In this document: positions 195-55,082 of the stretch, one piece after another
How the letters are laid out: the number at the start of each line of letters is the position of its first letter
How positions within the stretch are numbered: the stretch's first letter is position 1
NCBI RefSeq assembly: GCF_009793355.1
Contig: NZ_WTKP01000006.1
Coordinates: 186,001 to 250,000 of the forward strand
Length of the DNA stretch: 64,000 nucleotides
Direction: 5' to 3'
DNA from: Vreelandella zhuhanensis
GTDB lineage: Bacteria; Pseudomonadota; Gammaproteobacteria; Pseudomonadales; Halomonadaceae
Translations under genes and position numbers: made by a program
The notes under the pieces: generated by a model
What the model was told of the DNA's origin: nothing
What the model saw: only the letters and a program-made list of their open reading frames with translations
Databases searched by the model: none

Positions 195-2936
195 ATGGCC
201 TTCGATCAGACCTACTGTATGGATACGCTCACCGCTGCGACACAGCCAGACGCTGTCAGCGATGAATTCATCTACGCCTTTCTCGATGCCTATGGGTTTC
301 CCAAGGCAACCATCACCCAGATTCGCAACGGTGGTCAGCGCAATGTGGCCAGCCGGAAGGACGACGGGCACGTAGCCCTGAAGAACTGGCTCTACTTTAT
401 GCCGGTGCGCCAAGGGGAGAGCGTCCACGAGGCGTTGCAGGTGCTGGTAGACGAAGATGAGCCACCTCGTCACAAGTGCCGCTTCCTGGTTGTCACGGAC
501 TACCGGGAGCTGACAGCACTCGATACCAAGACAGACGAGCGTCTGGAGGTCGTTTTTAGTGATCTTCCCACGCAATACCTCTTCTTCGCCCCAATGGCCG
601 GCCTGGAGCGCACCAAGCGCTTCGAGGAGGCGTCTGCTGACCTGAAGGCAGCTGCGAAGATGGGGCGGCTGTTTGATCGCTTGAAGGAGGTCAACGAGTT
701 CAGCACGCCCGAGCAGCTCCACTCGCTAAACGTTTTTCTGACTCGTCTATTGTTCTGCTACTTCGCCGAAGATACCGATATTTTTCCCAAGAACGCCTTC
801 ACCAAGGTCATCACCGAGGCCAGCGGTGAGAACGGCGAGGGGCTAACTGAGCTGCTCGCCCAGCTTTTCAGAGTAATGAACCAGCCGGAGAGCGAGCGTT
901 CGGCAGATCTGCCTGCCCACGTGGCGCAGTTCCCCTACGTTAACGGCGGTTTGTTCCGGGATGACCTGCCCGTGCCCGAGATTCGCGGCAAGGGTCGGCG
1001 GATGATGATCGAGTGCGGGCAGCTCGCCTGGGAGGCGGTGAATCCCGATATCTTCGGTTCGATGTTCCAGGCAGTCGTGGATGAAGAGAGTCGTGATGCG
1101 CTGGGTCAGCACTACACCTCAGTGCCCAATATTTTGAAACTGCTTCGCCCCTTGTTCCTCGACACGCTCTATGTGGAGTTGCACAAGGCGGAGGGCAACC
1201 GCAAGAAGCTAGAAGCGCTGCTGGAGCGGCTGACGAGGATTCGCGTGTTCGATCCGGCGATGGGGTCCGGCAACTTTCTGATCATCTCCTACAAGGAGCT
1301 GCGCCGCTTGGAGATGGCCGTGTTCCGGGCACTTCAGGACGTGTCCGGTCAGCAAGAGATGTTCATGAGCGGGATTCGGCTGAGCCAGTTCTATGGCATC
1401 GAGATTGCTGACTTTGCACATGAAGTGGCGCAGCTTTCGCTGTGGCTTGCTGAGCACCAGATGAATACGCTTTTTGCCGAAGAGTTTGGTCGTTCCGAGC
1501 CAATGCTTCCGCTCAAAGACTCAGCAAATCTTGTCCTTGGGAATAGTCTTCAGTTGGATTGGAATACTGTTTGCCTTAATGACGAGTTTGTCGAGACTTA
1601 TGTGTGCGGTAATCCACCTTATCGTGGTGCTAGTTATCGCTCGGATGAACAGAATGAAGATATAGATAAGGTGTTCTACGGCTTTAAAAAGCACCGCTAT
1701 CTTGACTATGTGGCTAGCTTTTTTTGGAAGGGCGCTCAGTATATACGAGAACATGGTAATTTAGCTTTTGTTTCGACTAACTCCATTTGCCAAGGTGAGC
1801 AGGTGGCGATGCTGTGGCCTTTCATTTTAGAGCTTGGTGTTGAAATCAACTTTGCTTACCAAACTTTCAATTGGAAGAATAGTGCACAGTCCAACGCTGG
1901 TGTGCATGTGATAATCATTGGGATTGCTAGGAATCCACGCGAAAAGCGCTTATACCAGTATTTAGGTGGCGAGTGGCGAATGCGGCTAGTAAATAATATC
2001 AGCCCTTTCCTCCTCGAAGGTTCCAATACAGTGGTTGCGAGCAGGAAGAAGCCTTTGGTTGGGTCTACTTTCATGGTTAATGGCAACAAACCTGTGGACG
2101 GTGGCCACCTTGTTTTAACGGAAGAAGAAAAAGAGAGTTTAATTTCGGAAGATCAGAGGGTAAAGCCGTGGGTTAAGCGGTTGATGGGCTCTCAAGATTT
2201 CTTGCAAGACTATAAACGCTGGTGTTTGTGGCTAGTAGGTGTAGACAAAGATGAGATTAATTCAGTAGCTGTCGTTCGGGAGCGTGTTGATTTAGTCAAA
2301 AAAATGCGCTGTGCTAGCAAAAAGGCTGATACACGAAGAATAGCAGAAACTCCTCACTTGTTTGGTCAAGTTCGGCAATTTAGTGAAGACGAATATATTT
2401 TAGTTCCAAGCGTGACTTCTGAGAGGAGGAGCTATGCTCCAGTTGGAATATTTAACCATTCTGTCATCACTACGAATCTAGTTCAGATGATTCCGGGTGG
2501 CACCCTTTACGAATTCGCCATCCTCTCCACCCAAATGCACATGGACTGGCTGCGTCTCGTGGGTGGTCGTCTCAAAAGCGACTACCGATATTCGGCCTCG
2601 CTGGTCTACAACACCTTCCCCTGGCCGGAAGCCTCCGACCGCCAGCGCCAAGAAATCGAGAAATTCGGGCGAGCCGTTATCCTCGCCCGTGCCGCCCATC
2701 CCGATAAGACGATGGCGCAGCTCTACGATCCCGACAAGATGCCCGATAACCTCTTGGAAGCCCACCAAGCATTGGACCGTGCCGTGGAAAGGCTCTACCG
2801 CGACCGTCCTTTCCGCGATACCGCTGAGCGCCAAGAGTATCTGCTGGCCCGCTACGAGGCGTTGATTGAGGCCGAGACAGCGTCAAAGCCAAGTCGAACC
2901 AAGAAATCTCGCAACGCTGTCATCAAGGAGGGCTAA
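195..2936 (+). CDS. MmeI-like (type IIL family) adenine-specific DNA methyltransferase, nuclease motif degenerate
   Basis: Class I SAM-dependent N6-adenine methyltransferase of the MmeI/type IIL architecture, 913 aa. The SAM-binding motif DPAMGSGNF lies about 40 percent into the chain and the catalytic motif CGNPPY follows at about residue 475. The C-terminal part, with SDYRYSASLVYNTFPWP, is the usual target-recognition and tail region. In MmeI the N-terminus carries a D...ExK nuclease core. Here the matching stretch (residues 1-140) keeps the fold-like VVTDYREL segment, but I see no ExK signature, so this subunit probably methylates only. The GGAG about ten bases before ATG 195 supports the start. 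The helicase starts 3 bases after the stop. Inferred role: host modification and sequence recognition for a restriction complex with the next two genes. Confidence 0.85.
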   Translation: MAFDQTYCMDTLTAATQPDAVSDEFIYAFLDAYGFPKATITQIRNGGQRNVASRKDDGHVALKNWLYFMPVRQGESVHEALQVLVDEDEPPRHKCRFLVVTDYRELTALDTKTDERLEVVFSDLPTQYLFFAPMAGLERTKRFEEASADLKAAAKMGRLFDRLKEVNEFSTPEQLHSLNVFLTRLLFCYFAEDTDIFPKNAFTKVITEASGENGEGLTELLAQLFRVMNQPESERSADLPAHVAQFPYVNGGLFRDDLPVPEIRGKGRRMMIECGQLAWEAVNPDIFGSMFQAVVDEESRDALGQHYTSVPNILKLLRPLFLDTLYVELHKAEGNRKKLEALLERLTRIRVFDPAMGSGNFLIISYKELRRLEMAVFRALQDVSGQQEMFMSGIRLSQFYGIEIADFAHEVAQLSLWLAEHQMNTLFAEEFGRSEPMLPLKDSANLVLGNSLQLDWNTVCLNDEFVETYVCGNPPYRGASYRSDEQNEDIDKVFYGFKKHRYLDYVASFFWKGAQYIREHGNLAFVSTNSICQGEQVAMLWPFILELGVEINFAYQTFNWKNSAQSNAGVHVIIIGIARNPREKRLYQYLGGEWRMRLVNNISPFLLEGSNTVVASRKKPLVGSTFMVNGNKPVDGGHLVLTEEEKESLISEDQRVKPWVKRLMGSQDFLQDYKRWCLWLVGVDKDEINSVAVVRERVDLVKKMRCASKKADTRRIAETPHLFGQVRQFSEDEYILVPSVTSERRSYAPVGIFNHSVITTNLVQMIPGGTLYEFAILSTQMHMDWLRLVGGRLKSDYRYSASLVYNTFPWPEASDRQRQEIEKFGRAVILARAAHPDKTMAQLYDPDKMPDNLLEAHQALDRAVERLYRDRPFRDTAERQEYLLARYEALIEAETASKPSRTKKSRNAVIKEG

Positions 2937-2939
2937 GGC

Positions 2940-5021
2940 ATGGCGGAACTGATCAAGGTCGAGTATGCCCAGACCGGCAAGAGCGCAAGTAGTGATGCGT
3001 TGGGGATGCGCGAGATGCAGGCGCGAGCCTACGAGAAGCGCGACAGCCAATATCTGCTGCTCAAGGCGCCTCCGGCGTCCGGTAAGTCGCGGGCACTGAT
3101 GTTCCTTGCTCTGCACAAACTGAACCATCTTGGGCTTCGTAAGGCCATCGTGGCGGTGCCTGAGATGTCTATTGGTGCGTCATTCAAGAACACTGATCTT
3201 ACTTCGCACGGCTTCCAATGGAATTGGCACGTCAATGATCACTATGACCTGTGTCGTGCCGGCAGTGACACTGGCAAGGTAGACACCTTCTGCCGCTTTT
3301 TAGCCGACCCGCAAAGTCGCACATTGGTTTGCACTCATGCCACGCTGCGCTACGCCTTCGCCAAGCTCAAATCATCGGATTTCGACGACTGTCTCTTGGC
3401 TATCGACGAGTTCCACCACGTCTCGGTAGACGAGGGTAACCGGCTCGGTGGGTTAATCGATAATGTGATGAACGGCTCTAACGCTCACATCGTCGCAATG
3501 ACGGGTAGCTACTTTCGTGGTGATGCTGCGCCCATACTGCTGCCAAACGATGAAGCCTGTTTTGACAAGGTGACCTACACCTATTACGAGCAGCTCAACG
3601 GCTATCGCCATCTGAAGTCTCTGGGGATTGGTTATCACTTCTATCAAGGCCGCTATCTCGACGCGATACGTGAGGTGCTGGACCCGGACAAGAAGACCAT
3701 CGTCCACATCCCTAACGTCAACAGCGGCGAGAGCACCAAGGACAAGTATGGCGAGGTCGACCACATCCTCGATGCGCTGGGCGACGTCGAAGTGCAGGAC
3801 AGTCAAACTGGCATCGTCACGGTGCGTCATCCTAGCGGAAATCTGCTCAAGGTCGCTGACCTGGTGACCGATACGCCCAACCGCCGACACGTGCAGGAGT
3901 ATCTGCGCAACGTCACCAAGCCTGAGGACGTCGACGTCATCATCGCCCTAGGCATGGCCAAGGAGGGCTTTGACTGGCCCTTCTGCGAACACGTGCTGAC
4001 CATCGGCTACCGCAACTCAATGACCGAGATCGTCCAGATCATCGGCCGTGCCACCCGTGACAGCGAAGGTAAGAGCCATGCGCAGTTCACCAACCTGATC
4101 GCTCAGCCTGACGCCGACGATGAAGACGTGAAGGTCAGCGTTAATAACCTGTTGAAGGCGATTACGGTCTCCTTGCTGATGGAGCAGGTTTTGGCTCCCA
4201 GCGTGTCGTTCAAGCCGCGCTCACGCATGACACCTGGCGAAAAGGCTGAACCTGGCACTGTGATCATCGAGGACACTCAGGCACCAGTCTCCAACAAGGT
4301 GATGGGTATCCTGGACTCCGGTGGTCAGGAGGACATTATCGCTGCCCTGCTACAGAAGCCAGAGGTGGCCACTGCTGCGGTGACGGATACCACCGAGCCT
4401 GAGGTCATCAACGAGGTGGAGCTGCCGAAAGTCATTGAACGTATGCACCCTGATCTAGATGAAGGCGAGCGTGAGTTACTGCGCGAGACCGTGCTGACCA
4501 CGATGGGGGCGCGAGCCACAGGGGGCCTGTTCAATGAAGACGACCTGCCTGAGGACGCTGTGATACACGAGCCAGAGGCGGTATATGACACTGATTCCGA
4601 TGGTGGGCCCGTTGATCCCGGTGCCGCGCCAGATGGTCGTGATTTGGACGGTGATATCGAGAGTGACGAGCCCAAGGGAAATCGTCAGTTCCTCAAGATC
4701 GGCGAGAAATTCGTTAACATCGAACACCTCAACATCGACCTGATCAACCAGATCAACCCCTTCCAAGGCGCCTACGAAATTTTGTCCAAGGCGCTGACCG
4801 CTCCAGTGCTCAAGACCATTCAGGACACCGTGGTCGGCAACCGCACACAAATGACTGAGGAAGAGGCAGTTGTCCTCTGGCCCAAGATCGTCGCATTCAC
4901 AAAAGAGAAGGGGCGCCCGCCATCGGTGCACAGCGATGACCACATGGAAATGCGCTATGCCGAGGCGCTGGCCTACATCCAACAGAAGAAACGCGAAAGG
5001 GCTCGGGGAGTATCGGCATGA
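2940..5021 (+). CDS. DExH-box superfamily 2 helicase, middle gene of the three-gene restriction-like operon
   Basis: SF2 helicase/translocase of 693 aa. Walker A is APPASGKS at residues 43-50, the DExH box is AIDEFHH at about 154-160, the motif III equivalent is AMTGSYF, and motif VI is QIIGRATRD. After the helicase core comes an acidic, low-complexity linker (roughly residues 420-590). A C-terminal helical module follows, containing FTKEKGRPPSVHS, which resembles a module in the downstream nuclease. A strong AAGGAGG lies before ATG 2940. The nuclease gene overlaps its stop by 4 bases (ATGA), so the two are probably translationally coupled. Inferred job: ATP-driven translocation or remodelling on unmodified DNA, like HsdR-type motors but without its own nuclease. 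Confidence 0.85.
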   Translation: MAELIKVEYAQTGKSASSDALGMREMQARAYEKRDSQYLLLKAPPASGKSRALMFLALHKLNHLGLRKAIVAVPEMSIGASFKNTDLTSHGFQWNWHVNDHYDLCRAGSDTGKVDTFCRFLADPQSRTLVCTHATLRYAFAKLKSSDFDDCLLAIDEFHHVSVDEGNRLGGLIDNVMNGSNAHIVAMTGSYFRGDAAPILLPNDEACFDKVTYTYYEQLNGYRHLKSLGIGYHFYQGRYLDAIREVLDPDKKTIVHIPNVNSGESTKDKYGEVDHILDALGDVEVQDSQTGIVTVRHPSGNLLKVADLVTDTPNRRHVQEYLRNVTKPEDVDVIIALGMAKEGFDWPFCEHVLTIGYRNSMTEIVQIIGRATRDSEGKSHAQFTNLIAQPDADDEDVKVSVNNLLKAITVSLLMEQVLAPSVSFKPRSRMTPGEKAEPGTVIIEDTQAPVSNKVMGILDSGGQEDIIAALLQKPEVATAAVTDTTEPEVINEVELPKVIERMHPDLDEGERELLRETVLTTMGARATGGLFNEDDLPEDAVIHEPEAVYDTDSDGGPVDPGAAPDGRDLDGDIESDEPKGNRQFLKIGEKFVNIEHLNIDLINQINPFQGAYEILSKALTAPVLKTIQDTVVGNRTQMTEEEAVVLWPKIVAFTKEKGRPPSVHSDDHMEMRYAEALAYIQQKKRERARGVSA

Positions 5022-6346
5022 TTCGAACTCGTCGTGAGCCGCCGAAGCGTCGCGCCCTGGAAGACATCTTTGCCGAACCTGACGAACTGGGTCTGCTGAG
5101 GGTCGCACCACCCAGGTCTTCAGCCCCCACCACTGATCAGCGCCTTATCGCCAGTCTCCAGAACATCGAGGCTTTTGTCCGGGAGCATGATCGTGAGCCA
5201 GAGAAGGACGCCGAGGACTTGTCTGAAGCCACGCTAGCCGCCCATTTATACGCTCTCAGAGGCGATCTGGGACGTGTCGAAGGGTTGGCAGAGTGGGACT
5301 CCCTCGGGCTTCTACGGGCCTTTGTGGGCGATTCGGGGGGCTTAGATCATGCCCAGCCATCCACAGACGCTGGAGTAGGGAAGAGCACTCAAAGGGAGTC
5401 GACGGAGACCACACCACCCACGACTGTGAAAGCACCCATATCGCCTGAAAACGTGACATCGCTTGACGATATCTGGGACAGCGACACTCTCGGGCTACTG
5501 AGCGGCGATGACGAGAGCGTAGAGTCGATCTTCGACCTGACTCATGTGCCCGAGACCAGCGTGCGGGACATGCCTGACGAAATCGCCCAGCGCACCCACT
5601 GTGATGATTTCTATCGTTTCGAGGGCCTATTCGACCAAGTTCGTGAGGAACTGCGGGAAGGCGAGGCCGAGGCGGTGCCATTTCAGAAGGAGTCGCAAAT
5701 CGATGAGGGCGACATGTTCGTCCTCAACGGCATGCTGTGTATCGCCGACCAGGTGGGGGAGGAGAGTGTCGGTGCAGGGCGCAAGTTCAACCCGCGCTTG
5801 AGAGTCGTGTTCGACAACGGCACCGAGTCCAATTTGTTGTTGCGCTCCCTCGCTAGGGCACTCTACAAGGACGAGACCGGGCGGCGCATTCTCCGTCCCG
5901 ACATCACCTTCGACTCGATGCAGGGCATTACTCATCACGATAAGCGCACAGGCGTTATCTATATTTTGCGCTCGCTGAGCCAAGATCCGGCGCTTGTAGG
6001 CATTCGTAATCTGCACAAGATTGGCTACACCGAGAAGGAGTTAGAAAAACGCATCACTGGGGCAGAACGGCAGCAGACCTACCTGGAAGCGCCGGTGAAG
6101 GTTGTAGCGTCATTCGACTGCTACAACCTCGACCCACGACGATTCGAGCATCTGGTGCATGCCATGCTTCACAACCAGCGCGTCAACGTCCTGCTGCACA
6201 GCCGAGATGGAGGCACCTACCGGCCTCGTGAGTGGTTCAACGTCGAGCTAGATGCTGCACGTGAGGTCGTAAAGAGTATCGTGGATGGAACAATTGCTCA
6301 GTATCGGATGGATAATACGATCGGGCGGTTGGTTCTGAAAGGCTGA
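5018..6346 (+). CDS. GIY-YIG family nuclease (T5orf172/Mug113-like C-terminal domain)
   Basis: 442-aa protein. The C-terminal half (about residues 300-400) matches the GIY-YIG fold as seen in T5orf172-type proteins: GVIYILRS as the GIY strand, HKIGYTE as the YIG-like strand followed by a conserved arginine (EKRI), and further on a glutamate-bearing helix (RRFEHLVHAML). The N-terminus holds short repeated LGLL motifs (DELGLL, DSLGLL, DTLGLL) and a FVREHDREPEKD module similar to the helicase C-terminus. The start overlaps the helicase stop (ATGA). As the only recognisable nuclease in the operon it is the likely DNA-cutting subunit. The LGLL repeats may be docking motifs; that is inference. Confidence 0.8.
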   Translation: MIRTRREPPKRRALEDIFAEPDELGLLRVAPPRSSAPTTDQRLIASLQNIEAFVREHDREPEKDAEDLSEATLAAHLYALRGDLGRVEGLAEWDSLGLLRAFVGDSGGLDHAQPSTDAGVGKSTQRESTETTPPTTVKAPISPENVTSLDDIWDSDTLGLLSGDDESVESIFDLTHVPETSVRDMPDEIAQRTHCDDFYRFEGLFDQVREELREGEAEAVPFQKESQIDEGDMFVLNGMLCIADQVGEESVGAGRKFNPRLRVVFDNGTESNLLLRSLARALYKDETGRRILRPDITFDSMQGITHHDKRTGVIYILRSLSQDPALVGIRNLHKIGYTEKELEKRITGAERQQTYLEAPVKVVASFDCYNLDPRRFEHLVHAMLHNQRVNVLLHSRDGGTYRPREWFNVELDAAREVVKSIVDGTIAQYRMDNTIGRLVLKG

Positions 6347-7660: not shown

Positions 7661-9067
7661 ATGCCATTCAATCCTAGGCCTGAATACACAATTGTAAGTA
7701 CCGAGTTCGGGATAAAAGACTTTCACGATTACCGGGAGGACTTCGTTACTAGGCCTCCCTACCAGCGAAAGGCTGTCTGGGCTAAGAAGAAAAAGCAGTC
7801 TCTGTTGGATAGTCTGTTTCGCCGATATTACATACCAAAATTGGTTGTTCGTGAGGTTCGCCTTTCGGATACTACTGCTGTGAACGAAGTGATTGATGGT
7901 CAACAACGAATCACAACGGTTCAAGATTTCTTCGCCGGAGAATATCCTCTCCCGCGCTCTCTCGCTGACCTAGACCCGAACTTGCCGGGTAAGTATTACG
8001 ATGATCTCGATGTTTCAGTAAGAAAATTCATTGATAAATCACTCAAGTATCAAGCTGATATTATTAAAGACATCGATAGCCCTCATGACGTTAATCATCA
8101 AATCATTGCCACAGAAATATTCTGGCGACTCCAGCAAGGGGAAACGCTAAATTACATGGAAGTTGCACACGCGCAGCTATCAAGTTTGACGAGAAATTTT
8201 ATTGTCAAGTATGCGGATGATCAATCCTTTGACTACGAGCGTTATGAACCTATTGAAAAAAACCAAAATAAGCATTCATTCTTTAATCTGTTGAGCGTAG
8301 ACAACAATAGGATGAAGCATCTGCAATTCATGGCACGATTCTTGATGATCGAAACAGGCGGCGGTTACGCTGACCTAAGTGACAGAAAAATTGAGGAATT
8401 TATTAATGATCATAAACAGGCTGATGGAATAGGAAATCTGGCGTATGAATCCCAGGCAGAAGCCATCGCTGTTCTCAGAGTTCTTAATGTATTCCATGAG
8501 ATTTTTAAAAACGACCCGATGTTGGATGATGCCTCCGGCATAAAAGAGTTCTCGGTTGAATATTTTATAATATCTATTTACATGCTCGTACGTCATGTCA
8601 GCCGTCATTACGTGGTTGATTATTCTACCGGTGAAGTGATCAGAAATTTCATTTATTGGTTTCACAGGCGCTGGAAAAGCTACGATGAAACGGAGGATAT
8701 TGATCTACTTACGTTTAGTAATCATCGGCAGCAGGGTGAGAAAGATCTAGAAATCAGAGACATGATTCTTCGTCAAGTATTTTTTGATTACTTGGCTTCA
8801 CAGTCGCTGGAGATCGTTGCAAAAGATACGAAAAGAAGCTTTACGGAATTTGAAAGAATTTCCATTTATCGGAAGGGAAAAGGTCTCTGTCAGCAATGCT
8901 TGAGGGAAGGAAAGCCTGAAAAGGAAACTAGAGTCAGTTGGTCAAGGTATCAGGCGGACCATGTAATTCCGCATGCAAAAGGTGGTAAGACCGTTATAGA
9001 GAATGGTGAATTGCTTTGCTCATATCACAATCAGTCAAAGGGAGCATCTCTGGCTAATAGCACATAA
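7661..9067 (+). CDS. DUF262 (GmrS-like/ParB-fold) protein fused to an HNH endonuclease
   Basis: 468 aa. The N-terminal DUF262 domain shows RPPYQRKAVW at residues 31-40 and DGQQR at 79-83, the motifs of the GmrS-type NTPase/nuclease. A long helical middle follows. The last 65 residues are a zinc-linked HNH nuclease: the CQQC knuckle, ADHVIPHAKGG carrying the catalytic DH, and LLCSYHN as the closing N/H element. Classical GmrSD uses DUF1524 as the second nuclease; here an HNH takes that place. Known relatives are type IV-like restriction enzymes that act on modified DNA, so phage defence is the likely role. No specificity can be read from sequence. No clear Shine-Dalgarno stands before the ATG. 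Confidence 0.85.
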   Translation: MPFNPRPEYTIVSTEFGIKDFHDYREDFVTRPPYQRKAVWAKKKKQSLLDSLFRRYYIPKLVVREVRLSDTTAVNEVIDGQQRITTVQDFFAGEYPLPRSLADLDPNLPGKYYDDLDVSVRKFIDKSLKYQADIIKDIDSPHDVNHQIIATEIFWRLQQGETLNYMEVAHAQLSSLTRNFIVKYADDQSFDYERYEPIEKNQNKHSFFNLLSVDNNRMKHLQFMARFLMIETGGGYADLSDRKIEEFINDHKQADGIGNLAYESQAEAIAVLRVLNVFHEIFKNDPMLDDASGIKEFSVEYFIISIYMLVRHVSRHYVVDYSTGEVIRNFIYWFHRRWKSYDETEDIDLLTFSNHRQQGEKDLEIRDMILRQVFFDYLASQSLEIVAKDTKRSFTEFERISIYRKGKGLCQQCLREGKPEKETRVSWSRYQADHVIPHAKGGKTVIENGELLCSYHNQSKGASLANST

Positions 9068-15426: not shown

Positions 15427-15990
15427 ATGGCACTGATCGGCTATGCGCGGGTCTCGACAGCGGAGCAGGACACTGCCTTGCAGACAGATGCGCTTCGTAA
15501 AGCGGGGTGCGAGCGAATCTTCGACGATACCGTCTCTGGGGCCAAAGCTGATCGACTAGGCCTGATGGCCGCCCTGGAGTTTCTACGCGACGGCGATGTG
15601 CTGGTGGTGTGGCGACTGGATCGGCTAGGGCGTTCGCTGCCGCATCTGATCGAGGTGGTCAGTGCCCTGGAGGCCCGTGGTGTCGGGTTTCAGTCACTGA
15701 CCGAAAACATCGATACCACTACGGCTGGTGGGCGGCTGATCTTTCATGTGTTCGGTGCCTTGGGGCAGTTCGAGCGCGACCTGATTCGTGATCGCACCAG
15801 GGCGGGGCTAGCCGCTGCCGCCGCTCGTGGTCGCAAAGGGGGACGCAAGCCCGTCGTCTCAGACGACAAATTGAAGCGGGCAAGGGATCATCTCGCCAAT
15901 GGGCTGAACGTCCGCGAGGCCGCCGCACGAATAAAGGTCAGCAAGACGACCCTCTACGCTGCCTTGAAGGCTAGCCAACCCGGTTCATGA
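15427..15990 (+). CDS. Tn3-type serine resolvase/invertase
   Basis: 187 aa, full length for the small serine recombinase family. The N-terminal catalytic domain has IGYARVSTAEQD with the nucleophilic serine, the DRLGRS arginine motif and FQSLTENIDTTTAGGRL. The E-helix FGALGQFERDLIRDRT follows, and the C-terminal HTH (NVREAAARIKVSKTTLYAAL) binds DNA. No intact Tn3 transposase is nearby, so it is an orphan of a decayed transposon or serves island multimer resolution. It is convergent with the RecD-like gene and overlaps its end by six bases. Confidence 0.93.
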   Translation: MALIGYARVSTAEQDTALQTDALRKAGCERIFDDTVSGAKADRLGLMAALEFLRDGDVLVVWRLDRLGRSLPHLIEVVSALEARGVGFQSLTENIDTTTAGGRLIFHVFGALGQFERDLIRDRTRAGLAAAAARGRKGGRKPVVSDDKLKRARDHLANGLNVREAAARIKVSKTTLYAALKASQPGS

Positions 15991-18204
15991 AATATCAGAT
16001 AGATCTTTGCGCAATGTGGTGGAGTTCTTCAAAAGCTCAGGCAGCGAAACATAACGGCGGGCAGCAAAGGCCTGGGCGAGAATGGCTGCGGCCGCAGCTT
16101 CCCGATTTCCGATCAGCACGACCTGATCCACCGCACGGGTGATCGCAGTATAGATCAATGCTTGGTCGAGCAAGCGGGACTGACGAATCGGCACGATGAC
16201 TCGCGAGAACTGTGAGCCCTGCGACTTGTGAACGGTGATGGCATAGGCGTGGCTGAGCGATTCAATCTGCGTCGTCTTCAGGGTGTACTCAATACCCTCG
16301 AAATCGACCCTACAGCAGTCACTCTCTGCATCTTCGACAGGTAACGCCTCAATGATCCGGCCCAAAGAGCCGTTGCGCAGCCCAAGGGGGTAGTCGTTCT
16401 TGGTGAAGATGACCAGATCACCAACCTTGAATGGCACGTGATCAAGTGACTTCGCGGGCACTACGCCGTGTTGCAAGTCGACGTAGCAAACTGGTGTGCC
16501 ATCACGCCGATAGCATTCATGTAAGCGCTGATTCAGCTGTTTAACACCGCCATGGCCGCTGCGCGTGGCAGAGAGAATCTGAACGCTGTTGTCGGCGCCA
16601 TTGCCGCCAAGCTCCTCGTAGAGCCTTGCTATAGCTTCATCGAGCGAATATTCTGAACATTCAATAAACGATACGCCGCTGCCTCGGCCTTGGTAGGCCG
16701 CGTACTCGGGAAGCGTATGCCCACGAACAGCCGAGGCAATAGGCAGAATACCGCTTGCATCTGACTGCCGCTTGACCACTTTCAGTTCCGTTTGCGCAAT
16801 GGCCGGGTGACCGGCGAGTGCGTGCAGCACAAGGCCAGGGCCAATGGGTGGGAGCTGACTTGGGTCGCCGACCAGAATCAGTCGTGTGCCTGACGGGATG
16901 TGGCGCAGGAGTCGATAGAAGAGAATGGCATCCACCATCGACACCTCATCGACGACGACCACCGCATCGCTGCCGAGCTGTTCTTCGGAAACCCGCGCAA
17001 AAAAGGCGGCAATCGTACAGCTGTCTCGCCCGGTGGCCTCCTGCATGCGTTGTGCTGCACGCCCCGCGAGAGCAATCTGGTAGATGGCCACGCCAGGCTG
17101 CACGGCCTCCAGCGCTTCGTAGAGAATCTTGAGCACCGTGGTCTTGCCGGTACCCGCGCCGCCTAGAATTAAGCTGAGAGGGGCGCTCACACTGCACAGC
17201 ACAGCTTGATGTTGCTCGGTAGAGAGCGCAAAGCCTTGGGCACGCTCATAATCGTTGATAGCCGCTTCTACTGCGTCGTGTTCGACCTCGCCAGCCATGA
17301 AGATTGACTGCTGTTGAGCCACTTCGCCAGCAGCTATACGCGAAAGGCGCTGGGCAATCTCAAGCTCGATCAGATAGGTGCCGGTCGGTTGGTAAAGGGC
17401 GTCCACATTGCGGTACTGACTGCTCCCGCCGACGGCCAACGCTTGCTCAGCCAGATCCGCGTCACCGAGCAGCGTCTTGAGGCGGCGTTTGACATCCTTT
17501 TCCGGCAGACAGGTGTGGCCCTCCTTGAGTCCTCGGTAAAGCGTTTCCTCAACCGCTGCCTCAAGTCGTCTCGGATCATCTTCGGTCACGCCAAACCGAC
17601 ACTGCGCCAAGGCATCCACCGTCTTCCAGCGCGCTTCAAAGCTGATCAGCGCATAGGGGTTGGCCTCGATCTTCTCTCGCGCCTTTTCGGCATAACAGTC
17701 GACAACCTTCTGGCCGATCCGTCGCGGCATGCCCACCTGGTCGAGCCAGGATAGCGTCTGCGTGACTTGGTGTTTCTCAAAGGCATGGCATAGCAGGTCC
17801 GCCGCCTCGGGGCTGACAACAGCGCTCAGAGCGTCTACGTCCTTCTGCTCGATGAGCGACACCAAATCAGGCCCGAAGCAGCCGTAGAGCTTCTGTGCCT
17901 TGACCTGGCCCACGCCTGGGATGTCCGGACACCCGGCTATCCAGGCGATGATATTTTTACCCGATGGCCGCAGCAGTTCGGCATGCGTCGCATCGATCTG
18001 CTGCTCTTGCTGGTAGGTGCTCAGCGCACCGCGCAACGCCCAGCGCTGGCCTTTGCCGGGGAAGGATGCGTCGGGGATAAGCGTCCAGCTACAGCGCGCA
18101 ACATACCGCCGACCTTTGGTATCGACACCGGCCATGATGACCCCGCCGCGTGCCCCTCGACTCAGGACGGACGTGATGGTCAGCTCGACAAAGAGATCCG
18201 TCAT
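15985..18204 (-). CDS. RecD2-like superfamily 1B DNA helicase, last gene of the integrase operon
   Basis: 739 aa. An N-terminal small beta domain comes first, then helix-hairpin-helix repeats (IIAWIAGCPDIPGVG at about 85-99). The helicase core has Walker A GGAGTGKTT at 348-356, Walker B VVVVDEVSMVD, motif III LVGDPSQLPPIGPG, and the C-terminal YAITVHKSQGSQF plus YTAITRA (motifs V and VI). This is the order of stand-alone RecD2 5'-3' helicases. The start overlaps the stop of the preceding small gene (ATGA). Placement at the end of a recombinase operon suggests it processes DNA during excision, transfer or repair of the island; that is inference. Confidence 0.85.
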   Translation of the reverse strand: MTDLFVELTITSVLSRGARGGVIMAGVDTKGRRYVARCSWTLIPDASFPGKGQRWALRGALSTYQQEQQIDATHAELLRPSGKNIIAWIAGCPDIPGVGQVKAQKLYGCFGPDLVSLIEQKDVDALSAVVSPEAADLLCHAFEKHQVTQTLSWLDQVGMPRRIGQKVVDCYAEKAREKIEANPYALISFEARWKTVDALAQCRFGVTEDDPRRLEAAVEETLYRGLKEGHTCLPEKDVKRRLKTLLGDADLAEQALAVGGSSQYRNVDALYQPTGTYLIELEIAQRLSRIAAGEVAQQQSIFMAGEVEHDAVEAAINDYERAQGFALSTEQHQAVLCSVSAPLSLILGGAGTGKTTVLKILYEALEAVQPGVAIYQIALAGRAAQRMQEATGRDSCTIAAFFARVSEEQLGSDAVVVVDEVSMVDAILFYRLLRHIPSGTRLILVGDPSQLPPIGPGLVLHALAGHPAIAQTELKVVKRQSDASGILPIASAVRGHTLPEYAAYQGRGSGVSFIECSEYSLDEAIARLYEELGGNGADNSVQILSATRSGHGGVKQLNQRLHECYRRDGTPVCYVDLQHGVVPAKSLDHVPFKVGDLVIFTKNDYPLGLRNGSLGRIIEALPVEDAESDCCRVDFEGIEYTLKTTQIESLSHAYAITVHKSQGSQFSRVIVPIRQSRLLDQALIYTAITRAVDQVVLIGNREAAAAAILAQAFAARRYVSLPELLKNSTTLRKDLSDIS

Positions 18205-18656
18205 GGCCGCACCATACGACCCGTCTGGGCGAGGTGATCATCGACCATTCGGTAGCGCTTGAGCTGCTCACGCAGCTCCAACACCTCTGCGCGTAGAGCG
18301 GCATTCTGTTCTTCGAGCGCCTTCACGCGTTGCTCGCTGCGGTTGTTGATCGTGATAATGCGCCGATCTACCGACGATGAGGCCGCCTCATCTTGCGTTT
18401 GCGGCGACTTCTCCCTCTTGCCGGGGGAAAGGATATTCTCTGCATTCAGACGCGCTTCCAGCGCCTCCAAGGCGGTTTTCACCGCTGGGTTCTGGCGCAG
18501 CACGGATTTGGCAAAGCCGCACTCGGCGGCGACCTCGGTGCGGTTGAGCTGGCCTTGACGGATGTAGTCGGCCCAGTCGCCAGCGACCTGTCGTTCTGCG
18601 GCCCAGGCCTCGAACTTGGCTATGTTTTCTGCGGCACGCGCTTGCCCGTTTGCCAT
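18201..18656 (-). CDS. Small HTH and coiled-coil accessory protein of the integrase operon
   Basis: 151 aa. The N-terminal half includes QGQLNRTEVAAECGFAKSVL, a helix-turn-helix-like stretch, ending in RQNPAVKTALEALE. The C-terminal half is a leucine-zipper-like coiled coil (RVKALEEQNAALRAEVLELREQL). AAGGAGACTAAG before the ATG is an ideal ribosome site. It starts 18 bases after the preceding gene and overlaps the helicase start by 4. Probably a DNA-binding accessory factor for the recombinases, as TnpC is in Tn554; I cannot name the family with certainty. Confidence 0.6.
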   Translation of the reverse strand: MANGQARAAENIAKFEAWAAERQVAGDWADYIRQGQLNRTEVAAECGFAKSVLRQNPAVKTALEALEARLNAENILSPGKREKSPQTQDEAASSSVDRRIITINNRSEQRVKALEEQNAALRAEVLELREQLKRYRMVDDHLAQTGRMVRP

Positions 18657-18674
18657 CTTAGTCTCCTTCTTGGC

Positions 18675-19085
18675 CTAGTCACGGCGAACCTTGGGTAGTG
18701 GCGCCATTAGCTTCTGCTGAGACAGACCGGCAATGCTGGCGTGGTAGATGAATCGCTGGGCGACTTCAGCCATCTTTTCTAGCTCGGACCTGAGCGCGTC
18801 ATTCTCTTGCTGTAGCCGCGCAATCTTCTTCATCGCATCCGGCATACTTTGGGGCCTTGGAGCGCCCTCGGCCTTGGCGATTGCGTCCTTTCGCTGCTTC
18901 TTCTTGGCTAGGTAGGCGTTCTTCAGTATTAGCTTACCGGAGAGTGCTTGGCGGGTCGGTGCATAGCCCAGGATGCTTTTCGAGGCGGTGCAGATGTTAT
19001 CCCAGTTAAACGCCTCTTCCTGCGGCCAATCACGAATCATTTTTGCCATCTTATTGAGCTGTGAGTCGGTAATCGCCTTAGGCAT
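18675..19085 (-). CDS. Small coiled-coil accessory protein (TnpC-like position)
   Basis: 136 aa. The basic N-terminal domain (DWPQEEAFNWDNICTASKSI, then YAPTRQALSGKL) could bind DNA. Residues 85-112 form a coiled coil (MKKIARLQQENDALRSELEKM). The gene overlaps the end of the third recombinase by 8 bases (ATGCCTAA), so it is translationally coupled to it. In Tn554 a 125-aa TnpC with similar build follows two tyrosine recombinases and affects efficiency and orientation of insertion; the analogy rests on position and build only. Confidence 0.6.
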   Translation of the reverse strand: MPKAITDSQLNKMAKMIRDWPQEEAFNWDNICTASKSILGYAPTRQALSGKLILKNAYLAKKKQRKDAIAKAEGAPRPQSMPDAMKKIARLQQENDALRSELEKMAEVAQRFIYHASIAGLSQQKLMAPLPKVRRD

Positions 19086-21147
19086 CGTCTGGCTTCCTCA
19101 GTAGATCAAGGCAGGCCAGCAGCTCGTTGCCATACTCGATGCCCAAATCTTTCCTGTCCAGCAGCTTGACGCCCGCCGCTGCGGCCTTGTCCTCGACAAG
19201 CACCTGCTCATGGCTAAAGTCGGTGCTGTCTGCTAACTCGATCGGGCTACCATCGGGGATGTCCGCGTCGTTAAGGATATTTAGAAGCTGGGTCAGGCGT
19301 CCGATCTGCGGCTCTGCCACCTGCATCCAGCGCGAGGCGGCTCGTTCGCCGTTGTCGACAGCCGCCTTGGCTGCGTTGAGCGTCCGAACTAAGTGCTCTC
19401 GGTCTTTGACCACGGCGTCAACTGCCAGCCTGTCCCCTTTGCACATCAGTAACTCTGAGCAGTTGAGGCAGTCAGCGAAGCGGTTGCACGGCCCCGCGCG
19501 CCAGGATCGACGGCACAGCCCGTAGCGGCTCCTATGGAATGGCCCCTGGCTGTGAATCTCAGCTTCTTCGTCGGTGATTGGCTCCTTGTGGGTCTGCTCT
19601 TGCAGCATTCCTAGCAGGGCGGCGCCCTTGTTTGCCGCTTCCTGCGGGTCATCGTTCAGGTAGGTGAGCGTTTGTTTGGCGGAGGCCCGGCTGCTCCAAG
19701 TGGTGATCGTATCGATAGATACGCCGCTGCGCCGTGCAAGGCGGTTGAGCAGATGGCGCAGGCTGTGCGACTTGAGCTTCATTGCCTCATAGCCATGTCG
19801 GGTGAAAAAGCACAACAACTTAGCGCGCTTCCCAGAGGGTGCCGCCAGGCGCACCTTAAAATATTGCATCTTGAACGGGGCCAGCAGGACGGGGCTTGTG
19901 CTGCTACGAATACCAAACTGGAAGCGGCGAAAGCATAGTAATGACTCCGACATTTTGAGCGGCTTCTTACTCCTGCTGTCGACGGGTTCCTGATAGGGGA
20001 AGTGAGGATTCAGCTGGCGATGCTCAGCAAGAACGAGTTGCCAAAGGGAATCAAGCGTGAAGCCGGTAAGGGAGTAACTGCCAGTGTGCCTATGGATAAA
20101 GGTTGCACAGCTTTTCCGGTTTAGTAACCCTAGCGCCGCTGCCACCTGATCCCGCGTTAGCTCTTGATGATCGGAAACGTCCGGGCAGTTCTCGTGGCGA
20201 TAGAACTTGGTTGGATTGCCTTCCATGTAGTGGGCCAGCTGGCGGCCCTCTTCTGTGATGTGTTGTAGCCGCTCCACAGCCACAACGGCGTTAGGCGCCA
20301 TGGTGGCAGGAATTGCCTTGGGAACGAACTCCTTGATCTTCGGTGTCCAGTAGTTGAGGTGGTGCTGAATTTTGCCGTCCTTATCGGTTCCCTCGCGAAG
20401 GCAATCAACCCGCAGCCTTAGGGTCTCGCCTATGCGCATTGGTACGCTCAGCAAGAGACAAGTGATACTGGTGACCATCGTATCTACGTCTTCAAGCACT
20501 TGCGTGTGGCCACGCCCGAAGACCTCGGCGATTGCAAGCAGGGCATCCTGATCAGGAAGCTTGGCAGCTTTTATCTTTGCATCCGCGTAGCCGCCGTTGG
20601 CAAAGTCGTATGAGGCCGTGCCGACGTAGGGGTTCGCCCAGTAGTGTGCGCTGCTAGTCACGATGAAGAAGTCGGCGAGCGTTTTTAAAATGTTCAGCAG
20701 CTCACCGGCGATGAACTGTCGCCGTTTTTCCGGCCGTAGTTCAGCCATCGCGTGATCAAAATGGCGCTGATCTACCCTAGTGATATCGGGAATGCCGATG
20801 TCCTGTCTGAGCACCATTTCCAGGAAGCGCAAGGCTGACATTTCCCGATGGATGTTTTTGTGCGGTTTAAGCGTGTGGCGGTAACGTAGATAGGCCTTGG
20901 CGAATTCGACAAACGCCGGATGCATCAGTTGATGCTGTTCAGGCGTCTTTGTTGGATGCAGGGTACGGTGCTCATGATTGGTGAACCTTATGCTCTTGTT
21001 TAGTACGGGCCATCGGTTGCTTTCCCAGGAGAAACCAGTCTGGTCGTCCCAAAGGGTTAGGTGATCCCTGGATAGCGTGATCAGGTTTTGTAGGTTTTTC
21101 TGTGCCGTCAACTCTTTCTTAGGTGTGAATTGGATGATCTGTGCCAT
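19078..21147 (-). CDS. Large tyrosine recombinase (third of three), cysteine-rich C-terminus
   Basis: 689 aa from the ATG at 21147, chosen because it overlaps the previous stop as TAATG; an upstream in-frame ATG at 21183 is inside that gene. Catalytic-domain features: VPMRIGETLRLRVDCL (box I arginine), HSLRHLLNRLARRSGV (H-x-x-R box), and TYLNDDP near the end of the domain with the candidate nucleophilic tyrosine. The C-terminal extension has a cysteine cluster (CRRSWRAGPCNRFADCLNC, then MCKGD) that could bind zinc, as in Tn554 TnpB-type recombinases. Follows the second recombinase directly. Confidence 0.82.
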   Translation of the reverse strand: MAQIIQFTPKKELTAQKNLQNLITLSRDHLTLWDDQTGFSWESNRWPVLNKSIRFTNHEHRTLHPTKTPEQHQLMHPAFVEFAKAYLRYRHTLKPHKNIHREMSALRFLEMVLRQDIGIPDITRVDQRHFDHAMAELRPEKRRQFIAGELLNILKTLADFFIVTSSAHYWANPYVGTASYDFANGGYADAKIKAAKLPDQDALLAIAEVFGRGHTQVLEDVDTMVTSITCLLLSVPMRIGETLRLRVDCLREGTDKDGKIQHHLNYWTPKIKEFVPKAIPATMAPNAVVAVERLQHITEEGRQLAHYMEGNPTKFYRHENCPDVSDHQELTRDQVAAALGLLNRKSCATFIHRHTGSYSLTGFTLDSLWQLVLAEHRQLNPHFPYQEPVDSRSKKPLKMSESLLCFRRFQFGIRSSTSPVLLAPFKMQYFKVRLAAPSGKRAKLLCFFTRHGYEAMKLKSHSLRHLLNRLARRSGVSIDTITTWSSRASAKQTLTYLNDDPQEAANKGAALLGMLQEQTHKEPITDEEAEIHSQGPFHRSRYGLCRRSWRAGPCNRFADCLNCSELLMCKGDRLAVDAVVKDREHLVRTLNAAKAAVDNGERAASRWMQVAEPQIGRLTQLLNILNDADIPDGSPIELADSTDFSHEQVLVEDKAAAAGVKLLDRKDLGIEYGNELLACLDLLRKPDDA

Positions 21148-22778
21148 TAGACAATCCCCAACTCTCTCTTGCGGGCGTTGCATCGGTCGATGCAGTTCTT
21201 CACCGCGAGGATATCGGCTGAGAGGTCAATGGGCACAAGTAAATCTCTTGCCCCACCAATTCGCAACGCCTGGTTCTCTTCTTCCTGCCTAATCTTCAGC
21301 GCTTCAAGCACTTCTTTGTGTGGGGCGGACACCAACGGTTCGAAATGGCGGCAGCGGTAGCAGGGGATCGGTACAGAGGTGGTGGCACAAAAGCTGTGCT
21401 TGCCGCAATTGCCGACGTTTTTTAGTTCGCCGTTCTTGGCAAATTCAAGGCGGCTTATCGGGTCGTTGCTGCGACTGGCTTGCTCTTCGCTATCGATTAG
21501 TTTACCAGCGAAGGCCATCGCCAGCGGCATCAGAGTCGGTGCCATCGCTTCGTCAAGTTTACGAGCATCTTCGGCTGGGTCGTTGTAGTACGCCCGAAGG
21601 CTTTTCTCGTTCGTATGTCCCAGCCAATGTGAGAGCACGTGTAGGAGCACACCTTTACGAGCCAGTTGGCGAGCACGGGTGTGCCGGAGTCGTGTTGCAC
21701 TAACGACGAGTGGCCGACCGGTGCGGTGGCTAAGGGGTGGTTCGATATCTCGATGTGAATTAGGCGTCCAGGCTAGGATCTGTGAAATCCTAAGGGGTCT
21801 CATATGGAATAGGTGATGGTCGAGATTACTGCGCCAATCAACACGATATTGACTTGTCAGTTCGTATTTAGCTCTTTCTATGCGGCCAGCGGACGCAAAT
21901 ACCGGCAGCTTCTGAAGCTCCGAGTCGGATAGATGAATATCAAGCTGAAACTCGACCATTGCTTGGATCTCATTACGCTGAATCTCGAACAGGTTCCAGA
22001 GGTGGCCTGGAAGAGGGTGGTGCTCGAACTTGCTGTCGCGAAATCCGGTTTCGGCGCCCATGTCCTTGCCGCCAGGAAAGCTTACCACTGGCCCGCTCAG
22101 GCCCGAGCTATCGTCAGAGGCAGCGTTTCGGACGTCTTGGAACTTTAGGTGGGCAATCTGTATTGGGCGACGTGCGTACTGCATTGAGAGCAGCGTTATG
22201 AGAGTACGGCTCGTTGAGAATAGACCGTCCTCGTAGTTGCGCCAGACGCTGGCAAGCAGCGCCTCGTATTCCTCATCGCTCAGCCAGCTTTTCTCAGGGT
22301 CGTCTGACAACACATTATTGCTATAGACTGCACGGCTCTTTATTTTTATAAGGAGTTGTAGGGCCTCATCGCTGATCGCTTGTGGGTTGCGGGCTTTCCA
22401 AAAAACAAAGAATCTCTTGATAGTTCCGATATTGAGTACGAATAACGGGACTTTCAAGGTTTGCGCAACCCAAGATGTATCGAAGGCGCTCACGGGAAAG
22501 TGCTTCAGAGATTTACTAATCGCACACATGAGGCTAACAAACCCTGTTTGCGCATAGTCACCCTTAGCCGAAAAATCAAGCGCCGCCTGCTTAAATGACT
22601 CTTTTTGGGCGAGGTCAAACTTCGAAAGCGCCTTTGTCATATTCACGCCCCCGTATCCGATTCGGCGAAATGTATCCTGCTCCCAAATGAAATCCGAAGA
22701 CGGTCTTTCAGGGCGTTGTGTTCGCAGAAGCTCGGCGTCGGTGTTGGGACTTTCTTCCTGTGCTGGATTCTTGGCCAT
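21147..22778 (-). CDS. Tyrosine recombinase (second of three)
   Basis: 543 aa. The catalytic C-terminal region contains ARRPIQIAHLKFQDV (box I), SATRLRHTRARQLARKG (R-x-x-H box II) and LSHWLGHTNEKSLRAYY (the conserved GH, then the tyrosine nucleophile). After this comes a short cysteine-containing tail (FCATTSVPIPCYRCRHFEP), like that of its larger neighbour. It starts 5 bases after the first recombinase and its TAA overlaps the ATG of the third. Full catalytic set, so probably active. Confidence 0.85.
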   Translation of the reverse strand: MAKNPAQEESPNTDAELLRTQRPERPSSDFIWEQDTFRRIGYGGVNMTKALSKFDLAQKESFKQAALDFSAKGDYAQTGFVSLMCAISKSLKHFPVSAFDTSWVAQTLKVPLFVLNIGTIKRFFVFWKARNPQAISDEALQLLIKIKSRAVYSNNVLSDDPEKSWLSDEEYEALLASVWRNYEDGLFSTSRTLITLLSMQYARRPIQIAHLKFQDVRNAASDDSSGLSGPVVSFPGGKDMGAETGFRDSKFEHHPLPGHLWNLFEIQRNEIQAMVEFQLDIHLSDSELQKLPVFASAGRIERAKYELTSQYRVDWRSNLDHHLFHMRPLRISQILAWTPNSHRDIEPPLSHRTGRPLVVSATRLRHTRARQLARKGVLLHVLSHWLGHTNEKSLRAYYNDPAEDARKLDEAMAPTLMPLAMAFAGKLIDSEEQASRSNDPISRLEFAKNGELKNVGNCGKHSFCATTSVPIPCYRCRHFEPLVSAPHKEVLEALKIRQEEENQALRIGGARDLLVPIDLSADILAVKNCIDRCNARKRELGIV

Positions 22779-22783
22779 TTTTA

Positions 22784-22960
22784 TTACCCCTTTATGGTGT
22801 CCGACGCGATACGACTACCGACCTCTTTGGCTTGCTCTTGGATGTATCGTTGGTTATTGAGCAAAGACATATTACCCCGCTTCTCACTGTCTGACGCGAT
22901 ACGCCTACCGACCTCGTTGGTCTGCTCTTGAATGTGTCGTTGGTTGTAGAGCAAAGACAT
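22784..22960 (-). repeat. 90-bp tandem duplication in the first recombinase gene
   Basis: Two diverged copies of a 90-bp unit (22871-22960 and about 22784-22870). Both encode MSLL-x-NQR-x-IQEQ-x-x-EVG-x-RIASD. The duplication is in frame and extends the protein C-terminus. Confidence 0.85.
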
Positions 22961-24058
22961 GGCAGAATTGGGCGCCCAGCCCATCAGCATTCCGCGAATG
23001 GCGCGTTCGGTTTCAAAATCCCCCCCCTCCTTGTCCGCCTCTTGTGAGAACCTGTAGTTCCAGTCGTGGCGAAGCAGGTGAGGGTGCAGCGACTCCAGTG
23101 CAGGAAATGCCTCTTTTAGCTTGTTTAGCGCAGAGTTAAATCCGGTTTCGGTAACTGGCTTGCTTTGAAAGCGCCCTGCGCGGTGGTTAACGAACAGGAA
23201 ATCACTATCAGTACAGGGTCGCCAGTGATCCCGGTAAGCCATAAGCTGCTGCTCAGCTTCAGCAGAAATGCTCACGCTACGCCCAAGGGTCTTCGCAACC
23301 GGCTGTCTCACCCGAGAGTCGAACGCGTCGTGGTGGTTGCGCTCGATCTGTAACTGGGCGCTTTCGCCACCGATAGCTTCTACAAAATTGCTGAGCTTAA
23401 AGCTCAGCAGCTCGCCACGACGCATGCCTGTCTCATAGAGGATTCGCAGCATGATGACGTTCCTCATACGAGGTCCCTTGTCAGCATTTTTCTGCACCCC
23501 TTGGAGCGGATCTGCGAACAGCTCAAGCAATGCTTCCGTTGTCTCATTCGGTAGTCGCATGGCGAGGATACGCTGATTATTGGCTGATTTTGACCCGCGC
23601 TTGCGTGCGACCGCTGACATTAGGGCGTTGTGCTGCTGATCGATAGCGGCTTCGACATCAGCGTTTATGCCGGTGATTACCTCGTTCGTTAGCCAACGCA
23701 AGTACTTGGCCGTGCACACAATGTACGTGTTGGCCTTGTGGCGGCTGATGACCTCTCCATTGCGGCCTTTGCGGCTAGCGGAAAGGTGCCTTACCAAGCC
23801 ATCGATTTCGAACTGGCGCAGGAATTCTCGGCGCTGGAAGCGCGCCACCAGATCAATTTGCTGATTTGCCTCCCACTCACACAAACGCTTGATCGCCTCT
23901 AGATACACTTTTTGCGTCTCATGGGTAACACAAGGGCGTACCGAACGGGCGATGTAAGCTGTTGGATAGTACAGTGGGAAGCCGCCTGTCTCTGCATCGT
24001 AGATCTGCGAGAAGCGCTCGCCATCGGCGGCTATGAAATGTTTTATTGTATAGGCCAT
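22784..24058 (-). CDS. Tyrosine recombinase (first of three) with a duplicated C-terminal tail
   Basis: 424 aa, first gene of the operon. Box I is YETGMRRGELLSFKLS. Box II is HPHLLRHDWNYRF. GWAPNSAMSLLYNQRHI carries W in place of the second histidine and the likely nucleophilic tyrosine. The last 60 residues are two diverged copies of a 30-residue unit beginning MSLL. The first copy has the tyrosine (SLLYNQ); the second has asparagine there (SLLNNQ). The gene ends 120 bases from dnaQ, so the recombinase end of the island lies next to core DNA. The upstream region is AT-rich and presumably carries the operon promoter and an attachment site. Confidence 0.85.
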   Translation of the reverse strand: MAYTIKHFIAADGERFSQIYDAETGGFPLYYPTAYIARSVRPCVTHETQKVYLEAIKRLCEWEANQQIDLVARFQRREFLRQFEIDGLVRHLSASRKGRNGEVISRHKANTYIVCTAKYLRWLTNEVITGINADVEAAIDQQHNALMSAVARKRGSKSANNQRILAMRLPNETTEALLELFADPLQGVQKNADKGPRMRNVIMLRILYETGMRRGELLSFKLSNFVEAIGGESAQLQIERNHHDAFDSRVRQPVAKTLGRSVSISAEAEQQLMAYRDHWRPCTDSDFLFVNHRAGRFQSKPVTETGFNSALNKLKEAFPALESLHPHLLRHDWNYRFSQEADKEGGDFETERAIRGMLMGWAPNSAMSLLYNQRHIQEQTNEVGRRIASDSEKRGNMSLLNNQRYIQEQAKEVGSRIASDTIKG

Positions 24059-36427: not shown

Positions 36428-36535
36428 ATGGAAATTGAGGATTTATACCGTGACAGTGTGGCGATAGAGAAGCTGAGTGGTGAAACTCTTGGGCCGGTGA
36501 AGGCCTTAGTTCTGAAGGGAAAAATTTATGGATAG
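36428..36535 (+). CDS. 35-aa ORF overlapping the Abi gene start
   Basis: ATG at 36428 to TAG at 36533-36535. The peptide begins MEIEDLYRDSVAIEKLSG and ends GKIYG. The end overlaps the abortive-infection gene start by 8 bases (ATGGATAG), which suggests translational coupling. A GGTGGGA stretch lies about nine bases before the ATG. Whether the peptide is a functional partner, for example a small antitoxin or leader, cannot be told from sequence. Confidence 0.5.
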   Translation: MEIEDLYRDSVAIEKLSGETLGPVKALVLKGKIYG

Positions 36536-52661: not shown

Positions 52662-52670
52662 ACTTGGCCA

Positions 52671-54844: not shown

Positions 54845-54862
54845 GATAGGTTGTAACGTTGG

Positions 54863-55077
54863 ATGGATTGGTTCTGGACACCCGTGCTTGTGACAGCGGC
54901 TTTCTTGGGCATGCTTGACCGACACTGGCCGATTCGCTGGCAGCCGAAGAGCGGCTACTTGCAGCGTCTGGTCCAATCTCACCGAATGCATCATGCCGTG
55001 CGTACTCGAAGATGAAGGTACGTGAAGGTCGCAAGTTTCGGTCCGCCGGGACGTTGCGTCGAATGCTTGAGGAGTAA
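54863..55077 (+). pseudogene. Degraded crtZ-like relic
   Basis: The ORF 54863-55015 reads DRHWPIRWQPKSGYLQRLVQ then SHRMHHAV. This matches the C-terminal crtZ part of the next gene (HQRWPFRHVPRKGYLKRLYQ then AHRMHHAV). After its stop, another frame (55021-55077) continues with REGRKFRSAGTLRRMLEE, like the end of crtZ (KGREG...). The N-terminal half with the first histidine motifs is missing. It directly precedes the intact crtZ. Confidence 0.75.
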
Positions 55078-55082
55078 CTGCC

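Follow-up and report, generated by a model that had tools for sequence, protein, structure and literature searches.

A methyltransferase, helicase and GIY-YIG nuclease gene trio in Vreelandella zhuhanensis: a probable restriction-modification system of the OspHL35III kind

The window analysed here is a stretch of 64,000 nucleotides from Vreelandella zhuhanensis (contig NZ_WTKP01000006.1, positions 186,001 to 250,000). It opens with three adjoining genes for an MmeI-type methyltransferase, a superfamily 2 (SF2) helicase and a GIY-YIG nuclease (Table 1). The trio is real and conserved, most likely constitutes a restriction-modification system, and by description is a further member of the already described OspHL35III (type IIG-like) kind. 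Its motifs are intact and its linkage is conserved, its methyltransferase lacks a D..ExK nuclease motif, and divergence of the type that marks specificity is centred, among relatives, in the methyltransferase. From these sequence features, an ATP-dependent three-protein system of the OspHL35III kind, guided by its methyltransferase, is the probable explanation.

In such a system, the methyltransferase would recognise a short non-palindromic site via a single recognition domain and methylate an adenine there, marking self DNA. On unmethylated foreign DNA it would act as the site-recognition subunit and recruit or load the helicase, which would move on or remodel the DNA with ATP, while the GIY-YIG protein would cut. 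The separate GIY-YIG chain would do the nuclease job that an N-terminal domain holds in single-chain MmeI. We infer that the window copy methylates DNA and that the proteins form a complex, use ATP and cleave; methyltransferase, motor and nuclease probably act jointly against foreign DNA.

Organisation and conservation of the trio

A prior reading of the window from its letters (the sequence-only reading) had described the three genes as tightly coupled, and their coordinates and junctions confirm it: three bases separate the methyltransferase from the helicase, and the helicase and nuclease open reading frames (ORFs) overlap by ATGA. The window's own genome holds one match for each trio protein. 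Promoter-like sites occur at chance level (3 found, 2.9 expected), and terminator-like sites number 8, with a shuffled mean of 5.5 (standard deviation 2.2).

Table 1. Features of the trio, in window coordinates.
Feature	Position	Strand	Basis
MmeI-type adenine methyltransferase (DnmA/YeeA-like)	195..2936	+	913-aa ORF, five MmeI Pfam domains
SF2 DExH helicase/translocase (YeeB-like)	2940..5021	+	693-aa ORF, SF2 motifs
GIY-YIG (T5orf172/MUG113) nuclease (YeeC-like)	5018..6346	+	442-aa ORF, Pfam, conserved residues
Fast-diverging methyltransferase region, residues 481-760, overlapping MmeI_TRD 609-812	1635..2474	+	pairwise identity
Helicase C-terminal helical hairpin, about residues 643-686	4866..4997	+	profile comparison, predicted helices 640-657 and 668-692
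Nuclease N-terminal helical hairpin, about residues 43-86	5144..5275	+	profile comparison, predicted helices 39-57 and 68-82
GIY-YIG catalytic domain, nuclease residues 309-424	5942..6289	+	

In the methyltransferase, MmeI_N, MmeI_hel, MmeI_Mtase, MmeI_TRD and MmeI_C, the five domains shared with MmeI and type IIL enzymes, all exceed their Pfam cut-offs; the protein matches MmeI 5hr4 with 654 bits and the PADLOC model REase_MTase_IIG with 987 bits. The complete S-adenosylmethionine (SAM) and NPPY motifs of the sequence-only reading were located at residues 352-362 (FDPAMGSGNFL) and 473-476. Pfam places the helicase barely over the cut-off for Helicase_C and under that for DEAD; its motifs are complete, comprising GKS (48-50), DEFHH (156-160), TGS (188-190) and QxxGRxxR (366-373), the checked positions being conserved in all 49 rows of relatives. 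Its best solved relative by sequence is the type ISP enzyme LlaBIII (E 0.0015), which is also Foldseek's first match to the helicase model, though narrowly and at low template-modelling (TM) scores. The nuclease lies far over the cut-offs of MUG113 and T5orf172, both of GIY-YIG type. It has the residues G312, Y315, K334-I335-G336, R345, E377 and E405, its second motif being KIG rather than YIG, and seven active-site positions are conserved in 73 of 73 rows of relatives. Separate ORFs, Pfam families and motifs thus uphold the earlier assignment of motor and GIY-YIG nuclease to different chains.

The helices at the C-terminus of the helicase and at the N-terminus of the nuclease resemble each other (hhalign probability 95%, P 4e-8; 79% with longer stretches; 0.2% for one control region). 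AlphaFold2 models both regions as helical hairpins (mean pLDDT, the predicted local distance difference test, of 82.6 and 71.8 for the two models), and these related hairpins may be a shared docking module of helicase and nuclease. The N-terminal half of the nuclease also contains a short repeated motif ending in LGLL (residues 16-27, 94-99 and 151-161); at least two copies of this pattern occur in 34 of the 73 nuclease relatives, compared with 0.05% of shuffles.

A scan of species genomes with the helicase alignment gave 523 confirmed places, the best 80 of which were used, a set leaning to close relatives. The nuclease adjoins the helicase in 79 of these 80 loci (within 100 nt in 78), and the sole locus lacking it (L082) ends at a contig edge. 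In 71 loci the methyltransferase precedes the helicase in the same orientation, and in one (L061) it lies downstream; the remaining eight have only 0 to 2.4 kb of contig ahead of the helicase. The trio is conserved, in support of the sequence-only reading. A few loci carry a split or short helicase, nuclease or methyltransferase (L035, L047, L056, L083, L105). The gap from methyltransferase to helicase measures at most 100 nt in 44 of the 71 loci, 100-1000 nt in 7 and above 1000 nt in 20.

That gap exceeds 300 nt in 26 of the 80 loci (L034-L107), and the junction often holds guest genes. Ten gap genes were chosen for a Pfam search and eight gave a match: AlbA_2, Abi_C (in L037, inside the trio), DUF4268, Bro-N, Fic (twice), AAA_13 and DUF1016/YhcG. 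Type I loci likewise carry guest genes between their modification and motor genes, the position that Fic, AlbA_2, DUF1016 and Bro-N guests occupy in the trio relatives.

Hosts include Pseudomonadota, Bacteroidota, Bacillota, Actinomycetota, Campylobacterota, Planctomycetota and one methanogen bin. In a sample of the window's class, the helicase has a match in 14 of 274 genomes, ten of them strong (>400 bits). Nine of those ten also have the nuclease, and the tenth (G257) is cut by a contig end. Nuclease matches accompanied by no strong helicase occur in two genomes of the class, G079 (the match begins at a contig end) and G233 (pieces on two contigs). Within the window's family, 32 of 275 genomes match the helicase, 27 at >790 bits; in each of the 27, by hand count, the contig with the helicase also has a strong match to MmeI_TRD. 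Helicase matches extend to 263 of 72,556 plasmid records, with 103 spanning at least 80% of the protein; five plasmids were inspected, of which four have the complete trio in their annotation, while the fifth record (L004) begins within the methyltransferase frame. DNA matches to positions 195-4190 of the window occur in 92 of 5,426 E. coli genomes, none covering >80%, and the three E. coli genomes opened contain the trio in the same order.

The absent nuclease motif and the place of specificity

MmeI is described as cleaving with residues D70, E80 and K82, which lie in the same chain as its methyltransferase (PMC4833311). The window methyltransferase lacks D..ExK at the alignment position where relatives without an accompanying helicase carry it, bearing out the claim that it has no such nuclease motif of its own. 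In an alignment of 90 methyltransferases, the pattern, composed after inspection of that alignment, is present in none of 78 trio proteins and in 10 of 12 helicase-free ones. In a second set of six helicase-free methyltransferases, taken from five genomes within the window's family, five carry it, bringing the total to 15 of 18. The three exceptions are L150, which comes from G233 (the genome with nuclease pieces elsewhere), occupies a contig of 6.6 kb and groups with the trios on the tree; L163, whose N-terminus is missing; and L236, whose contig stops 2.0 kb past the methyltransferase. One of the five second-set genomes, G414, has a helicase piece on a separate contig. Two additional trios outside the 78 (L244, L245) also lack the pattern.

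The helicase-free proteins are top-scoring matches from the window's class and family; 16 loci were fetched and 12 counted, four (L160, L161, L164, L174) being excluded as pieces (<780 aa), and short or edge-cut trio methyltransferases were likewise excluded to leave 78. A broken MmeI-type gene in the window's family (L242, genome G539), its frame interrupted in many places, was left out of the second count.

Where the target is read can be judged from how close relatives differ. The nearest relative, from Halomonas lysinitropha (L028), shares 90% identity with the window over methyltransferase residues 1-440 but 47% over residues 481-760. The helicase core stands at 90%, the nuclease middle domain at 96%, the GIY-YIG domain at 90% and the nuclease N-terminal hairpin at 63%; of the seven regions besides 481-760, all but the hairpin lie at 84-96%. 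Where the helicase core is printed at ≥0.90 (13 pairs), region 481-760 is the least conserved of eight in 12 pairs. Across 119 pairs with a helicase core at 78-99.5%, which share members and are not independent, its median identity is 0.46, against 0.57 to 0.81 elsewhere. As this region diverges most in all but one of the close pairs, changes of specificity appear to arise in the methyltransferase, with motor and nuclease following. That helicase and nuclease tolerate such a change is what a restriction system guided by its methyltransferase would lead one to expect.

These comparisons bear on a second arrangement, that of CglI and NgoAVII, in which helicase and nuclease would form a site-recognising endonuclease of their own and the methyltransferase would merely protect. 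The same three activities are distributed over a methyltransferase, a separate nuclease and a separate SF2 ATPase, and the CglI R and N proteins are reported to cut with ATP in the absence of the methyltransferase. However, the published systems use a C5 methyltransferase and a PLD nuclease with a B3 DNA-binding domain (PMC4267653), neither of which Pfam detects in the trio, and in close pairs the recognition region differs where the folded nuclease domains can be retained (0.47 versus 0.96 and 0.90 between L028 and the window; 0.52 versus 0.96 and 0.93 between L076 and L090). This last observation favours an enzyme guided by its methyltransferase and makes a CglI-like endonuclease improbable.

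Relation to named systems

Several hundred REBASE members share this three-protein set, and OspHL35III is named as their prototype (PMC4752239, legend to S4 Fig, panel C). As described there, it combines a separate MmeI-like methyltransferase and recognition protein lacking the N-terminal endonuclease motif, a translocase and a GIY-YIG endonuclease. The window has a counterpart for each: an MmeI-like methyltransferase with a target recognition domain (TRD) and no endonuclease motif, a separate SF2 protein predicted to be a translocase, and a separate predicted GIY-YIG endonuclease. The published description, from which the likeness is drawn, offers no difference from the window trio. The view that no named system matches was thus mistaken, as both OspHL35III and the dnmA-yeeB-yeeC genes of Bacillus subtilis fit by description (PMC4752239, PMC9973331, PMC7261158); nor is the set new to catalogues, in view of its REBASE members, and a catalogued system is what the sequence-only reading had named as its refutation.

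The B. subtilis locus DnmA(YeeA)-YeeB-YeeC agrees with the window in gene order, protein families and absent endonuclease motif, as far as its published description goes, and its helicase and T5orf172 genes are reported as conserved downstream of dnmA; DnmA methylates GACGAG (PMC9973331, PMC7261158). In the window, the helicase follows the methyltransferase at +1 and the T5orf172/GIY-YIG gene at +2. B. subtilis, used as a control genome, matches PF20473 and PF20466. The B. subtilis system differs in having been reported without restriction activity. Vibrio crassostreae became more sensitive to certain phage subclades, but not to others, when its homologues of dnmA and yeeB were deleted (another study, cited in PMC9973331). 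The restriction half of this known kind has been barely tested.

Several points weigh against a methyltransferase-guided restriction system. The B. subtilis locus neither restricted plasmid uptake nor protected against three phages, phage genomes do not avoid its motif, and it is termed a relic by the authors (PMC9973331, PMC7261158). Among the literature matches listed, none with biochemistry of this kind's helicase or nuclease was found. The one exception among the 13 close pairs (L076 and L086) shares its recognition region (0.96 over residues 481-760), and the nuclease middle domain also diverges in several pairs (0.59 in L040/L099, 0.56 in L097/L104). Finally, the D..ExK contrast rests on one clade. 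On a quick tree of the first 90 methyltransferases, which has some long branches and omits the second-set loci, the ten ExK proteins and L163 form one clade; the contrast is therefore a single evolutionary change, and a Fisher test on 0 of 78 versus 10 of 12 overstates it.

The locus may also be read as one in which only the methyltransferase works, as an orphan epigenetic regulator, and helicase and nuclease are carried along inactive. This has been proposed for B. subtilis DnmA, where deletions affected neither phage sensitivity nor transformation (PMC9973331, PMC7261158). An eroded trio, split into many frames, also occurs in the window's family (L243, genome G485). All three window frames are open, however, and the active-site columns of nuclease (73 of 73 rows) and helicase (49 of 49) are conserved across phyla, which argues against general inactivity, if not against inactivity of the window copy. 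We regard this alternative as unlikely.

Other named systems stand further off. Type IIL enzymes such as MmeI join nuclease and methyltransferase in one chain, which the trio does not. AchA6III, like the trio, pairs an MmeI-like methyltransferase lacking PD-ExK with a separate restriction gene, but its nuclease is of the PLD family and is fused to the translocase (PMC4752239, S4 Fig legend, panel B). The sequence-only reading had proposed comparison with DISARM, BREX, type I and type ISP systems; once run, this placed the trio in none of them. Type I systems likewise tie specificity to a methyltransferase plus a motor, but have a separate HsdS and an HsdR in which nuclease and motor are fused; here the TRD lies inside the methyltransferase and Pfam finds no nuclease domain in the helicase. 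Type ISP enzymes are single chains that comprise nuclease, motor, methyltransferase and TRD, whereas the trio has three separate ORFs. For DISARM, whose partner proteins are DrmA, DrmB and DrmC, the PADLOC models run on the three trio proteins gave the methyltransferase 120 bits to DrmMI versus the 987 to REase_MTase_IIG and 17.6 bits to DrmD (best 25 of 33 families listed), and neither helicase nor nuclease matched a Drm model at E up to 1. Exclusion of foreign DNA without cutting, as in BREX, finds some echo in a weak similarity of the methyltransferase to PglX. That score, about 27 bits, falls far short of the curated cut-offs (500 and 900), and a nuclease with conserved motifs is present; such exclusion is highly improbable.

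Returning to methyltransferase-guided restriction, a fuller version is possible but doubtful. It would be an ATP-dependent restriction class with a GIY-YIG cutter, in which a freely exchanged methyltransferase recognition domain reprograms marking and cutting, motor and nuclease dock by the related hairpin, and the former nuclease domain of the methyltransferase serves as docking platform.

Neighbouring genes and significance

The gene just upstream of the window (L175) is one we take to encode an RNase HI, and that at 24182 presumably encodes an epsilon-type exonuclease. The trio may thus mark one end of an insertion. At the far end of the stretch opened by the trio, positions 15985-24058 (-) hold a gene for a RecD2-like helicase and several genes presumably for recombinases; two of the latter were scanned, one giving a Phage_integrase match under the cut-off and the other no match. 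Downstream of the trio, a GmrSD_N (DUF262) and HNH protein (7661-9067, +) is a candidate type IV-like restriction enzyme. Convergent Abi_C and FRG-domain genes (36528-38130) follow a tRNA-Ser gene. At 44608-47579 (-), a C5 cytosine methyltransferase (46248-47579) is directly followed by a 546-aa protein without a Pfam match, perhaps its partner restriction enzyme. The genes at 51672-61509 presumably form a carotenoid pathway (prenyl synthase, phytoene synthase, desaturase, cyclase, glycosyltransferase and isomerase).

The trio belongs to a widespread family that extends to conjugative plasmids and E. coli and was already listed in 2016. Defence catalogues may under-call it, as PADLOC has a strong model for the methyltransferase only, named as a type IIG restriction enzyme-methyltransferase although the protein carries no nuclease motif and the nuclease is the product of another gene. 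The divergence of the recognition region among close relatives offers a direct test of methyltransferase-guided cutting.

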